Assembly (NCBI RefSeq): GCF_003032475.1
Contig: NZ_CP028369.1
Coordinates: forward strand, 7,440,001-7,504,000
DNA length: 64,000 nt
Origin: Streptomyces sp. P3
GTDB taxonomy: Bacteria; Actinomycetota; Actinomycetes; Streptomycetales; Streptomycetaceae
Direction: 5' to 3'
A program made the translations under genes and the position numbers. Below, in pieces: positions 14,823-23,772 of this stretch. The number at the start of each line of letters is the position of its first letter. Positions within the stretch are counted from its first letter, which is position 1. The notes below the pieces were generated by a model, which was not told the origin of the DNA, did not search any database, and saw only the letters and a program-made list of their open reading frames with translations.

Positions 14823-15665
14823 ATGGCCAACGTCGTACGTGCCGCACTGGTCCAGGCCACCTGGACCGGCGACACCGAGTCCATGGTGGCGAAACACGAG
14901 GAGCACGCCCGGGAGGCGGCCCGTCGGGGCGCGAAGATCATCGGGTTCCAGGAGGTGTTCAACGCCCCCTACTTCTGTCAGGTACAGGAGCCCGAGCACT
15001 ACCGCTGGGCGGAGCCGGTCCCGGACGGGCCGACCGTGCGCCGCATGCGGGACCTCGCCCGCGAGACGGGCATGGTGATCGTCGTGCCGGTCTTCGAGGT
15101 CGAGCAGTCCGGCTTCTACTACAACACCGCCGCCGTGATCGACGCCGACGGCTCCTACCTCGGCAAGTACCGCAAACACCACATCCCTCAGGTGAAGGGG
15201 TTCTGGGAGAAGTACTACTTCCGGCCGGGAAACATCGGCTGGCCGGTGTTCGACACGGCCGTCGGCCGGGTCGGCGTGTACATCTGCTACGACCGCCACT
15301 TCCCCGAGGGCTGGCGGCAGCTGGGCCTCAAGGGCGCGCAGCTGGTCTACAACCCGTCCGCCACCCACCGCGGCCTCTCCGCCCACCTGTGGCAGCTGGA
15401 GCAGCCCGCGGCGGCCGTCGCCAACGAGTACTTCGTCGCCGCGATCAACCGGGTCGGCGTCGAGGAGTACGGCGACAACGACTTCTACGGGACGTCGTAC
15501 TTCGTCGACCCGCGCGGCAAGTTCGTCGGCGAGGTCGCGAGCGACAGGGACGAGGAACTCGTGGTCCGCGACCTCGACTTCGACCTCGTCGAGGAGGTCC
15601 GGCAGCAGTGGGCCTTCTACCGCGACCGCCGTCCCGACGCCTACGAGGGGCTGGTGCAGCCGTGA
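14823..15665 (+). CDS. Carbon-nitrogen hydrolase (beta-ureidopropionase-like), copy 1
   Basis: A 280-residue nitrilase-superfamily enzyme with the full catalytic set: Glu44 (GFQE), Lys118 (KYRKHH) and Cys155 (YICYDRH). The sequence resembles N-carbamoyl-beta-alanine amidohydrolase and N-carbamoylputrescine amidase. In this locus it would hydrolyse N-carbamoyl-beta-alanine, the ring-opened product of dihydrouracil, to beta-alanine, CO2 and ammonia. It starts at the ATG at 14823 after AAGGAGC. Its stop overlaps the aminotransferase GTG by four bases, so the two are translationally coupled. It is a close paralogue of the 18747 gene, with catalytic residues at identical positions. Confidence 0.85.
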   Translation: MANVVRAALVQATWTGDTESMVAKHEEHAREAARRGAKIIGFQEVFNAPYFCQVQEPEHYRWAEPVPDGPTVRRMRDLARETGMVIVVPVFEVEQSGFYYNTAAVIDADGSYLGKYRKHHIPQVKGFWEKYYFRPGNIGWPVFDTAVGRVGVYICYDRHFPEGWRQLGLKGAQLVYNPSATHRGLSAHLWQLEQPAAAVANEYFVAAINRVGVEEYGDNDFYGTSYFVDPRGKFVGEVASDRDEELVVRDLDFDLVEEVRQQWAFYRDRRPDAYEGLVQP

Positions 15666-16945
15666 GCGACCTCCACGCCCGGCACCGGAGCGTCCTGCCC
15701 GACTGGCTCGCCCTCTACTACGAGGAGCCGCTGGAGATCACCCACGGCGAGGGCCGGCACGTCTGGGACTCCGAGGGCAACAAGTACCTCGACTTCTTCG
15801 GCGGCATCCTCACCACCATGACCGCGCACGCGTTGCCCGAGGTCACCAAGGCGGTCGCCGAGCAGGCCGGGCGGATCGTCCACTCCTCGACGCTCTACCT
15901 CAACCGGCCCATGGTCGAGCTCGCCGAGCGCATCGCCCACGTCAGCGGCATCCCCGACGCCCGGGTCTTCTTCACCACCTCGGGCACCGAGGCCAACGAC
16001 ACCGCGCTGCTGCTCGCCACCGCCCACCGGCGCAGCAACACCGTGCTGGCGATGCGCAACAGTTACCACGGCCGTTCCTTCAGCGCGGTCGGTATCACCG
16101 GCAACCGAGGCTGGTCGCCGACCTCGCTGTCACCGTTGCAGACGGTGTACGTGCACGGCGGGGTCCGCGGCCGAGGACCTTTCGCCGGTCTGGACGACGC
16201 CGCCTTCGTCGACGCCTGTGTCGCCGACCTCAAGGACCTGCTCGGCCACACCCGCCCGCCCGCCGCCCTGATCGCCGAGCCCATCCAGGGGGTCGGCGGG
16301 TTCACCTCGCCGCCCGACGGCCTCTACGCGGCCTTCCGCGAGGTGCTGGACGAACGCGGCATCCTGTGGATCTCCGACGAGGTGCAGACCGGCTGGGGCC
16401 GCACCGGCGAGCACTTCTGGGGCTGGCAGGCACACGGCCGAAACGGTCCGCCGGACATCGTCACCTTCGCCAAGGGCATCGGCAACGGCATGTCCGTCGG
16501 CGGCGTCATCGCCCGCGCCGAGATCATGAACTGCCTGGACGCCAACAGCATCTCCACCTTCGGCGGCACCCAGATCACCATGGCTGCCGCTCTGGCGAAC
16601 CTCTCCTACCTGCTGGAACACGACCTCCAGGGCAACGCCCGGCGGGTCGGCGGCCTGCTCATCGAGCGGCTGCGGGCCGCCGCCGCCCAGGATCCGGGCG
16701 TGCGCGAGGTGCGCGGGCGCGGCCTCATGATCGGCATGGAGCTGACCCGGCCGGGCACCGGACTGGCCGACCCGGACCGGGCGTCCGCCGTGCTGGAGGC
16801 GGCCCGCGCCGACGGGCTGCTGATCGGCAAGGGCGGCGGCCACGACACCAGCGCCCTGCGCGTCGCCCCGCCGCTGTCCCTGACCGTGGCGGAGGCCGAA
16901 GAGGGCGCCGCGATCCTCGAGAGCGCGCTGAGGAGCACGCGGTAG
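15662..16945 (+). CDS. Class III PLP aminotransferase (beta-alanine/omega-amino acid type)
   Basis: A 427-residue fold-type I enzyme. The PLP lysine is Lys271 (TFAKGIGNG), Asp239 lies in WISDEVQTG, and the phosphate-binding SGTEAND is at 108-114. It resembles the AGXT2/aspartate aminotransferase family group of omega-aminotransferases. In this context it should move the amino group of beta-alanine, made by the coupled nitrilase, to pyruvate or 2-oxoglutarate, giving malonate semialdehyde. The GTG at 15662 overlaps the nitrilase stop by four bases. The PucR gene follows 30 bases later in the same direction. Confidence 0.87.
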   Translation: MSDLHARHRSVLPDWLALYYEEPLEITHGEGRHVWDSEGNKYLDFFGGILTTMTAHALPEVTKAVAEQAGRIVHSSTLYLNRPMVELAERIAHVSGIPDARVFFTTSGTEANDTALLLATAHRRSNTVLAMRNSYHGRSFSAVGITGNRGWSPTSLSPLQTVYVHGGVRGRGPFAGLDDAAFVDACVADLKDLLGHTRPPAALIAEPIQGVGGFTSPPDGLYAAFREVLDERGILWISDEVQTGWGRTGEHFWGWQAHGRNGPPDIVTFAKGIGNGMSVGGVIARAEIMNCLDANSISTFGGTQITMAAALANLSYLLEHDLQGNARRVGGLLIERLRAAAAQDPGVREVRGRGLMIGMELTRPGTGLADPDRASAVLEAARADGLLIGKGGGHDTSALRVAPPLSLTVAEAEEGAAILESALRSTR

Positions 16946-16975
16946 CGCAGGCCTGAGCCAAGGGAACACATCGCC

Positions 16976-22160: not shown

Positions 22161-22188
22161 CCCCTCTCCCGCCGTCCCGGGAGAGGGG
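22161..22188 (+). terminator. Hairpin between the LLM gene and the NCS1 transporter gene
   Basis: 11-base perfect arms CCCCTCTCCCG (22161-22171) and CGGGAGAGGGG (22178-22188) around a six-base loop, with no U-run after it. It lies 43 bases after the LLM stop and 55 bases before the NCS1 ATG, so it could attenuate transport gene expression or protect the upstream mRNA end. Confidence 0.45.
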
Positions 22189-22242
22189 GCCGGAGACCCG
22201 CACGGCCTTTCCGGATCCGCCCCTCGTTTGATTGGCCTGCCC

Positions 22243-23772
22243 ATGACCGACACCGCTCCCACGGCCATACCCATGGCCGACCAAGTCACCCTTTCCGACG
22301 GGCGCGTCGAGCTCGCCCCGGGTTCCCCGCCGCCCAGCGGTCCCTACGCCAACGAGGACCTGCTCCCGGTCCCGGTGGAGAAGCGCACCTGGACCACCTA
22401 CAACTTCTCCGCGCTGTGGGTCGGCATGGCCCACAACACGGCGTCGTGGACCCTGGCCTCCGGTCTGATCGCCGTCGGCATGGACTGGAAGCAGGCGGTG
22501 TTCACCATCGCCCTGGCCAACGTGATCGTGCTGGTGCCGATGCTGCTCACCGGGCACGCGGGACCCAAGTACGGCATCCCCTTCCCGGTCTTCGCCCGTG
22601 CCTCCTTCGGCATCCGCGGCGCCAACCTCCCGGCCGTGGTGAGGGCGTTGGTGGCGTGCGGCTGGTTCGGCATCCAGACCTGGATCGGCGGTGAGGCGAT
22701 CTACTTCCTCGCCGGGAAGCTGATCGGCGGCGGCTGGAGCGACGCCGGGAAGATCGGCGGCTACGCCTGGACCATGTGGCTGTCGTTCGCGATCTTCTGG
22801 GTGATCCAGGTGGCGATCATCTACCGGGGCATGGAGACGATCCGCCGCTTCGAGAACTGGGCGGCTCCCTTCGTCCTCGTCGGCGCGCTCGTCATGCTGA
22901 TCTGGATGAGCAACAAAGCAGGCGGTTTCGGCCCGTTGCTGGACCAGCCCTCCAAGCTCGGCTGGGGCGGCGACTTCTGGAAACTCTTCTGGCCTTCCCT
23001 CATGGGCATGATCGGCTTCTGGTCGACGCTGTCGCTGAACATCCCCGACTTCACCCGTTACGGGAAGTCGCAGAAGGCGCAGACCTGGGGACAGGCTCTC
23101 GGTCTCCCGACGACGATGACGTTGTTCGCGCTGCTGTCGGTGATGGTCACCTCCGGCTCGCAGGCCGTGTACGGCGAGACGATCTGGGACCCGGTACAGC
23201 TCGCCGCCAAGACGGACAACGCCGTCGGGCTGCTCTTCGCTCTGGTGACGGTGCTGGTGGCGACCCTGTCGGTGAACATCGCGGCCAACCTGGTGTCCCC
23301 GGCCTTCGACTTCTCCAACGTCGCTCCCCGGAAGGTCAGTTTCCGCACCGGCGCACTCGTCACCTGCGTGCTCGGCGTGCTGATCTTCCCCTGGAAGCTG
23401 TACTCCGACCCGCAGGGCTACATCTTCACCTGGCTCGGCCTGGTCGGCGGTCTGCTGGGCACGGTCGCCGGCATCCTCATCGCCGACTACTGGATCCTGC
23501 GCCGCGGCAGACTCGACCTGACCGACCTGTACCGGGCCGGCGGCCGCTACTGGTACGCCGACGGCTGGAACTGGCGGGCGGTGGCCGCCTTCGTGGTGGG
23601 CGGCGTCCTCGCGATCGGCGGCGCAAGCTTCAAACCGCTGTTCGACGGCCGTCCGATCCCGGCGCTGGAACCTCTCGCCGACTACGGCTGGGCCGTCGGA
23701 CTGGGCACCTCGATCGTGGTGTACCTGGCCCTGATGCTGCCGCGCGACCGACGGGAGGAAAGCACCGTCTGA
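22243..23772 (+). CDS. NCS1 family nucleobase:cation symporter
   Basis: A 509-residue integral membrane protein with about 12 membrane helices and the NCS1 hallmarks: the NFSALWVGMAHN segment in helix 1, the GIQTWIGGEAIY region in helix 3, and LNIPDFTRYG in the middle. Members import uracil, allantoin, hydantoin or cytosine with Na+ or H+. Placed last in the pyrimidine locus, it is the likely uptake system for the substrate. The ribosome site before the ATG at 22243 is weak; an alternative ATG lies at 22273. A strong hairpin follows the stop. Confidence 0.9.
   Translation: MTDTAPTAIPMADQVTLSDGRVELAPGSPPPSGPYANEDLLPVPVEKRTWTTYNFSALWVGMAHNTASWTLASGLIAVGMDWKQAVFTIALANVIVLVPMLLTGHAGPKYGIPFPVFARASFGIRGANLPAVVRALVACGWFGIQTWIGGEAIYFLAGKLIGGGWSDAGKIGGYAWTMWLSFAIFWVIQVAIIYRGMETIRRFENWAAPFVLVGALVMLIWMSNKAGGFGPLLDQPSKLGWGGDFWKLFWPSLMGMIGFWSTLSLNIPDFTRYGKSQKAQTWGQALGLPTTMTLFALLSVMVTSGSQAVYGETIWDPVQLAAKTDNAVGLLFALVTVLVATLSVNIAANLVSPAFDFSNVAPRKVSFRTGALVTCVLGVLIFPWKLYSDPQGYIFTWLGLVGGLLGTVAGILIADYWILRRGRLDLTDLYRAGGRYWYADGWNWRAVAAFVVGGVLAIGGASFKPLFDGRPIPALEPLADYGWAVGLGTSIVVYLALMLPRDRREESTV

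Follow-up and report, generated by a model that had tools for sequence, protein, structure and literature searches.

A luciferase-like oxidoreductase as a candidate F420H2-dependent uracil/thymine reductase in a pyrimidine degradation locus of Streptomyces sp. P3

The breakdown of uracil and thymine is a basic nitrogen-recycling route. The variants of PydA, the iron-sulfur dihydropyrimidine dehydrogenase, use NADPH, NADH or ferredoxin and share a common iron-sulfur FMN enzyme core (PMC7332683, in the part available). A reductive uracil pathway, the genes of which are not all known, is described for Mycobacterium smegmatis (available part of PMC4617892). Genetic evidence implicates the putative F420/FMN-dependent oxidoreductase SSGG-03002/NpsU in the reduction of the uracil C5-C6 bond in mureidomycins and napsamycins; in vitro activity was not obtained (PMC10714638, available part). 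In the uricolytic gene clusters of Chloroflexota, an F420-dependent luciferase-family yanthine reductase has been proposed, with no test of the proposal in the accessible portion of the article; within that limit, this is the nearest published idea that was found (PMC12507026). Here we describe a seven-gene locus of Streptomyces sp. P3, located within a 64,000-nucleotide stretch of contig NZ_CP028369.1 (hereinafter the window), in which a luciferase-like monooxygenase (LLM)-class protein is likely to be an F420H2-dependent uracil/thymine reductase, the first enzyme of the reductive pyrimidine degradation pathway encoded by the locus. For this protein we assign the reaction and its direction, as well as substrates and in vivo cofactor, on indirect grounds.

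The proposed reaction, the place before dihydropyrimidinase and the presence of neighbors with the PydB, PydC, PydD and MSDH roles liken the LLM protein to PydA, PreAT and PydAc, from which it differs in its unrelated family and fold, the lack of FMN and iron-sulfur domains and the proposed electron donor, F420H2. Compared by description, it resembles SSGG-03002/NpsU as a putative F420/FMN enzyme of Streptomyces reducing the uracil ring, but the latter tailors an antibiotic, acting on a uridyl peptide, whereas a catabolic role is proposed here. The yanthine reductase is likewise described as an F420 luciferase-family protein that replaces an iron-sulfur reductase and dearomatizes a pyrimidine ring; it belongs, however, to a purine pathway, and its XdhD and SsnA neighbors are nearly absent from the LLM loci. 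Among the matches listed by an open-access literature search, the scope of which left out subscription papers and preprints, no title or opening of an abstract linked F420 to dihydropyrimidine dehydrogenase. Two of the listed papers hold both terms, PMC12507026 and PMC8097209, and the single F420 mention in the available part of the latter concerns electron bifurcation. A search on the names of the TIGR03842 family, to which the LLM protein belongs, found nothing; prior publication of an F420-dependent uracil reductase elsewhere is possible.

The seven genes, all encoded on the forward strand between positions 14823 and 23772 of the window, are as follows.

14823..15665, + strand: nitrilase-superfamily carbamoyl-amide hydrolase 1, beta-ureidopropionase-like, proposed PydC role, with an ICYD cysteine motif
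15662..16945, + strand: class III pyridoxal phosphate (PLP) aminotransferase with a GTG start, proposed beta-alanine/beta-aminoisobutyrate transaminase (putative substrates), PydD role
16976..18556, + strand: PucR-type transcriptional regulator, weakly similar to PmfR (44 bits against a cut-off of 800)
18747..19589, + strand: nitrilase-superfamily carbamoyl-amide hydrolase 2, beta-ureidopropionase-like from its structure-database relatives
19684..21087, + strand: HydA, dihydropyrimidinase/D-hydantoinase, above the TIGR02033 cut-off, PydB role
21099..22118, + strand: LLM-class oxidoreductase of the TIGR03842 family, proposed F420H2-dependent uracil/thymine reductase
22243..23772, + strand: NCS1-family nucleobase:cation symporter (TIGR00800), alternative TTG start at 22228

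Open reading frames (ORFs) and NCBIfam scores bear out this gene content, which had been described in an earlier note on the same DNA, made from the letters alone; the name PucR comes from that note and is otherwise our presumption. In the proposed pathway, uracil or thymine would be imported by the NCS1 symporter, and the LLM protein, acting as a Mer-like TIM-barrel hydride transferase, would pass a hydride from F420H2 to the ring, reducing the C5=C6 bond to give dihydrouracil or dihydrothymine. NpdG/Fno, the gene of which lies outside the locus, would regenerate F420H2 at the expense of NADPH. HydA would then open the ring, the nitrilases would hydrolyze the carbamoyl product with release of CO2 and ammonia, the aminotransferase would convert beta-alanine or beta-aminoisobutyrate to the semialdehyde, and PucR presumably regulates the process. 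An 11-nt gap separates HydA from the LLM gene, as the note had it, and the aminotransferase start overlaps the stop of nitrilase 1 by 4 nt, as expected of co-transcribed genes. The first enzyme of the classical pathway, which the note had described as absent, is indeed missing from the locus: neither PreA nor PreT was found there at E 1e-10.

The LLM protein scores 570.6 bits against TIGR03842 (a hypothetical equivalog; cut-off 295.45) and is accordingly a member of this family, as previously suggested. At E 1e-3 it matches 20 NCBIfam families, among which is neither the RutA model TIGR03612 nor the PreA model NF006183 (PyrD-like FMN plus ferredoxin domain). In a sequence search of solved proteins, Mer ranks first, at 26-28% identity. 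The confident AlphaFold2 model (pLDDT 91.9, pTM 0.92) predicts a TIM barrel of the Mer/Fgd/Adf type, i.e., the fold of F420-dependent luciferase-like hydride transferases. F420-dependent enzymes fill the top 15 rows of the VIA-align structure comparison (Mer 36.2, secondary alcohol dehydrogenase 32.9, Fgd 31.4, lowest 29.3); FMN monooxygenases begin at 27.9 and RutA scores 25.4, so that the F420-enzyme rows lie approximately 4 to 11 Z units above RutA. This gap, the lack of a TIGR03612 match and the linkage of F420 synthesis genes to LLM genes (see below) render it extremely improbable that the protein is a RutA-like oxygenase opening uracil oxidatively with FMN, even though RutA shares its superfamily and acts on uracil. 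A RutA-type opening also would need no dihydropyrimidinase.

Residue roles in Mer have been described, with Glu6 as the catalytic residue and Asp96 and Gln178 also named (PMC11094777, available part). The Glu6 position is occupied by Val6 in the LLM protein, and glutamate occurs there in none of the 18 aligned rows; together with a score of 114.8 bits against the Mer model TIGR03555 (cut-off 348.7), this led us to set aside the identification of the protein as Mer. Compared with the solved Mer structures (1z69, 8qpl, 8qq8), the LLM protein thus differs at the catalytic residue, and its gene neighbors differ as well. Asp97 of the LLM protein aligns with Mer Asp96, the acid being invariant in the alignment; that it binds uracil is speculation. 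The position given for Gln178 (PMC11094777, available part) reads Asn by count in the 8qq8 chain, and the LLM protein has an invariant glutamine, Gln172, aligned there; invariant His and Tyr residues are present as well.

The window is part of one 9.85-Mb contig, with a completeness rating of 100%. In this genome, the PreA model has one match only, of 41 bits (cut-off 335), which from its size and score is probably a dihydroorotate dehydrogenase, and RutA was not found above its cut-off of 498 (best match 55.7 bits); a PydA gene elsewhere in the genome, which the note had named as a refutation, was thus looked for and not detected by these profiles. The two F420 genes sought, CofD (444.7 bits, cut-off 257.45) and the NADPH:F420 reductase NpdG (268.2 bits, cut-off 149.8), are both present at a distance from the locus, so that F420 synthesis and its reduction by NADPH are expected, in agreement with the F420 capacity that the note had ascribed to streptomycetes. 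In Streptomyces venezuelae, a deletion of fbiC is reported (PMC12282290).

Profile searches for TIGR03842, HydA and PreA were extended to 296 genomes across Actinomycetota, with CofD sought in the LLM genomes. TIGR03842 was detected in 62 of the 296, every match being above the cut-off; in a same-sized draw from the phylum, HydA was above its cut-off in 87 genomes and PreA in two. HydA is present in 59 of the 62 LLM genomes vs 28 of the 234 others (Fisher 1e-36, a value overstated by the relatedness of the genomes). The two genes reside on one contig in 50 of the 62 and within 10 kb of each other in 47, against a rough chance expectation of 0.5% per (4-Mb) genome; in nine genomes HydA is on another contig. 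PreA was found in none of the 62. One of the two PreA genomes, G208, carries PreA, PreT and HydA close together and has no LLM gene; the other, G191, does not appear among the HydA genomes. CofD occurs in 58 of the 62 LLM genomes (57 above the cut-off). In two related actinobacterial genomes it lies approximately 11-12 kb from the LLM gene (G225 C1:2180676, G268 C3:83120), and CofD or CofE is found within the LLM loci of Cellulomonas and Demequina (L163, L164), which amounts to a loose F420 link within Actinomycetota too.

The gene neighborhoods were compared, by clustering of ORFs, in up to 20 kb around the LLM gene in 39 of the 62 LLM genomes, chosen on score and family rather than at random, with G208 as the control. 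HydA is encoded in 35 of these 39 loci. Across the 39 loci, the control and the window, some cluster members being fragments at contig ends, the clusters comprise nitrilase (21), aminotransferase (19), M20 amidase (15), NCS1 (14) and semialdehyde dehydrogenase (12), and ABC-transporter genes with an SsuA-like binding protein are recurrent. NCBIfam models were applied to a single representative of each cluster: that of the dehydrogenases matches TIGR01722, methylmalonate-semialdehyde dehydrogenase (MMSDH), at 735 bits (cut-off 448.5), and that of the amidases TIGR01879 at 297 bits (cut-off 204). This set of neighbors suggests uracil/thymine degradation to the semialdehyde/acyl-CoA level, with PydA missing. 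The window's own row of clusters lacks the MMSDH-type one. In one locus (L076, from G225), the LLM gene at 13488-14479 is in two tblastn pieces and may be broken or misassembled.

The support for a reductase beyond the window comes chiefly from Pseudomonadota, where genes for F420 synthesis are packaged together with LLM and Pyd genes. In a plasmid search, LLM relatives were found in 14 records, including ten of Leisingera and one of Paracoccus annotated as TIGR03842. In Leisingera aquaemixtae, cofG-cofH-cofD-cofC-cofE-npdG-LLM is divergent from NCS1-hydA-Zn-hydrolase-aminotransferase-pntB-pntA; Paracoccus alcaliphilus has the same cof set, then the LLM gene and an ABC transporter; and in Paracoccus denitrificans DSM 413 (L089), NCS1, HydA and M20 genes are divergent from a full cof set. 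Eighty named loci, those that best match the Leisingera protein out of at least 582 relatives, were then annotated with tblastn, a sample that favors Pseudomonadota. Of the 57 Pseudomonadota loci, 43 have NpdG directly in front of the LLM gene (within 400 nt), 40 contain CofD, 34 at least four cof genes and 47 one or more (in six of the 57, from Devosia and its kin, CofE is the only one); HydA, M20 amidase or nitrilase genes are found in 29, PntA or PntB (transhydrogenase) in 8 and MMSDH in 9. Anywhere in the genome, HydA was detected in 48 of the 50 tested. The 17 Chloroflexota loci include HydA or nitrilase in 15, aminotransferase in 11 and MMSDH in 9. In a phylogeny of 122 LLM proteins, a well-supported set of 77 comprises the sequences from Pseudomonadota and Chloroflexota (plus one other), and a second set contains 37 of the 42 Actinomycetota (plus two others), which indicates that the linkage with HydA was kept across a deep split; the Leisingera protein is 40-46% identical to the non-Paracoccus sequences of the alignment.

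These gene arrangements bear on three other functions of the locus. First, the locus might degrade hydantoins or another cyclic imide via HydA and carbamoylases, with the LLM protein performing an unrelated redox step on the substrate or product. HydA is indeed close to solved D-hydantoinases, and nitrilases of this kind also hydrolyze N-carbamoyl compounds other than ureidopropionate, so for the hydrolases such a route is possible. As an explanation of the whole locus it is unlikely, because it leaves the redox enzyme unexplained although LLM tracks HydA in three phyla. Hydantoin hydrolysis by itself requires no redox enzyme. Moreover, the association of LLM with the NADPH:F420 reductase and, in some loci, transhydrogenase or MMSDH in Pseudomonadota fits the conversion of uracil and thymine to semialdehydes, and no hydantoin racemase was seen among the named neighbor clusters, a dedicated search not having been made. 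Second, the LLM protein could be an alcohol- or semialdehyde-type dehydrogenase, as Adf or Fgd, that generates F420H2 from a late intermediate such as 3-hydroxypropionate. This is quite improbable given that the position of NpdG directly before LLM suggests a supply of F420H2 from NADPH, that MMSDH, where present, already handles the semialdehyde, and that this would leave genomes without PreA and, in the case of the host genome, without RutA, with no enzyme for the first step. Third, a reductive purine route in place of a pyrimidine one has in its favor the yanthine reductase proposed for Chloroflexota (PMC12507026, available part), XdhD-like matches in the LLM loci L148 and L047 and an SsnA-like match in L077. 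At E 1e-10, however, such genes are scarce in 123 loci plus the window (124 sequences: XdhD 2, SsnA 1, YgeY 2, YgeX 0, YgeW 0), and the one YgfK match is in the control locus L082; the aminotransferase, MMSDH and beta-ureidopropionase-like genes suit pyrimidines instead, which leaves very little likelihood for a purine substrate.

Several observations weigh against the LLM protein being an F420H2-dependent uracil/thymine reductase that stands in for PydA. At the level of the protein, the literature search found no assayed enzyme of the TIGR03842 family, and in the Foldseek list 9gnd, an F420 enzyme, is in 46th place amid FMN monooxygenases, so that fold rank alone is no proof of the cofactor. 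HydA also acts on hydantoins and hence does not fix the substrate, and the window aminotransferase is above no specific NCBIfam cut-off among the matches listed (25 of 69 families). In Actinomycetota, three of the 62 LLM genomes lack a HydA above the cut-off, distances of 12 kb, 50 kb and 3.4 Mb separate the two genes in three of the same-contig pairs, and four LLM genomes, drafts 81-96% complete, lack CofD, which was counted in the 62 LLM genomes only. Ten of the 57 Pseudomonadota loci contain no cof gene, and 28 have no HydA, M20 or nitrilase gene in the stretch examined. Among the 80 named genomes, PreA above the cut-off co-exists with LLM in 8: six in one set of 50 (three Leisingera, Aquamicrobium, Devosia psychrophila and Limimaricola) and two in the other 30 (a Geminicoccaceae genome and a 'bacterium CPR1' genome). 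Eight more have PreA-model matches of 142 to 305 bits, below the cut-off of 335, the two highest of which (305 and 296 bits, Chloroflexota) could be PydA-like or related reductases. In the order of Paracoccus, PreA is present in 178 of 196 genomes and LLM in two, one with and one without PreA.

The expectation that the LLM-hydA pair occurs where PydA is missing therefore holds in part. It agrees with the complete lack of PreA in the actinobacterial LLM genomes and with its absence, or presence only below the cut-off, in 72 of the 80 named ones; a strict rule, with LLM confined to genomes that lack PydA, was rejected given the genomes with both, the three Leisingera among them. Given how rare LLM is, and how general PreA, in the order of Paracoccus, the former can supplement PreA as well as replace it. 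Most genomic tests (lack of PreA and RutA, CofD and NpdG, proximity to HydA, cof/Pyd linkage) favor the F420H2-dependent uracil/thymine reductase that the note had put forward, which as a sequence-based prediction would be a new donor type, a single-domain enzyme on an unrelated fold, for the dihydropyrimidine dehydrogenase job. If this is true, a function would also be assigned to a hypothetical-equivalog family found in more than a fifth of the sampled Actinomycetota genomes. It further appears reasonably plausible that many Alpha- and Gammaproteobacteria make F420 mainly for pyrimidine catabolism, via a transferable module in which cofG-H-D-C-E, npdG and the F420H2-dependent uracil/thymine reductase are combined with Pyd genes and, in some cases, NAD(P) transhydrogenase; the module would replace or back up the iron-sulfur dihydropyrimidine dehydrogenase. 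Such a role would fit the trace F420 cited for Paracoccus denitrificans in a 2021 review, the available part of which leaves open why Proteobacteria and Chloroflexi make F420 and does not mention uracil (PMC8498797). The 5-fluorouracil drug is reduced by the PreTA system of Escherichia coli (PMC11332652, available part); should the LLM enzyme reduce it too, one might speculate on a use or concern in drug metabolism.

The remaining genes of the window locus are consistent with these assignments to different degrees. HydA scores 571.8 bits against TIGR02033 (cut-off 393.25), its nearest solved relatives are D-hydantoinases and dihydropyrimidinases, and it contains an HTH motif at residues 65-67 and a lysine motif at approximately 156-158, which we take to be parts of the metal site. 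NCS1 scores 484.6 bits against TIGR00800 (cut-off 353.1). For the aminotransferase, the class III assignment is what is observed; the 'beta-alanine-type' label is our inference. The two nitrilases, 71.8% identical to each other, have the cysteine motif in place (presumably that of the nitrilases) and score 260.9 and 260.1 bits, below the N-carbamoylputrescine amidase cut-off of 410.25. The designation of both as ureidopropionase-like finds some backing in the solved relatives of nitrilase 2, which include 2vhh (called CG3027-PA, E 2.9e-54) and the beta-ureidopropionase 8pt4 (8.3e-53); its best match, however, is the N-carbamoylputrescine amidohydrolase 5h8i (E 2.8e-58). The two copies (14823-15665 and 18747-19589) in one locus might divide the uracil and thymine products between them, or serve another carbamoyl compound.

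Some LLM loci of other bacteria deviate from the common arrangement. No Pyd genes were seen by eye beside LLM in the ORF lists of L127, L119, L092 and L131 (Devosia, Pelagibacterium and other Pseudomonadota-type loci). In L131, from a Mesorhizobium metagenome-assembled genome, an ORF at 8934-9965, presumably an Fgd-type LLM from its resemblance, lies between the cof genes and the TIGR03842 gene, and NpdG was not found in this locus by tblastn, so the F420 reducer may differ by lineage. The alphaproteobacterial loci L141 and L147 have two and three LLM matches, respectively, adjoining cof genes. On plasmid 3 of Variovorax sp. PBL-E5 from linuron-contaminated soil (L085), the region 5414-15973 encodes a distant LLM (30% identical), a nitrilase-type hydrolase, an amidohydrolase and RidA, and the stretch also contains npdG and cofG/H/D/C/E; this may be a further F420-linked module, for the catabolism of a different compound. 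In the window, just downstream of the locus, an ORF at 25170-26999 resembles, from its translation by eye, proteins of the gamma-glutamyltransferase family.

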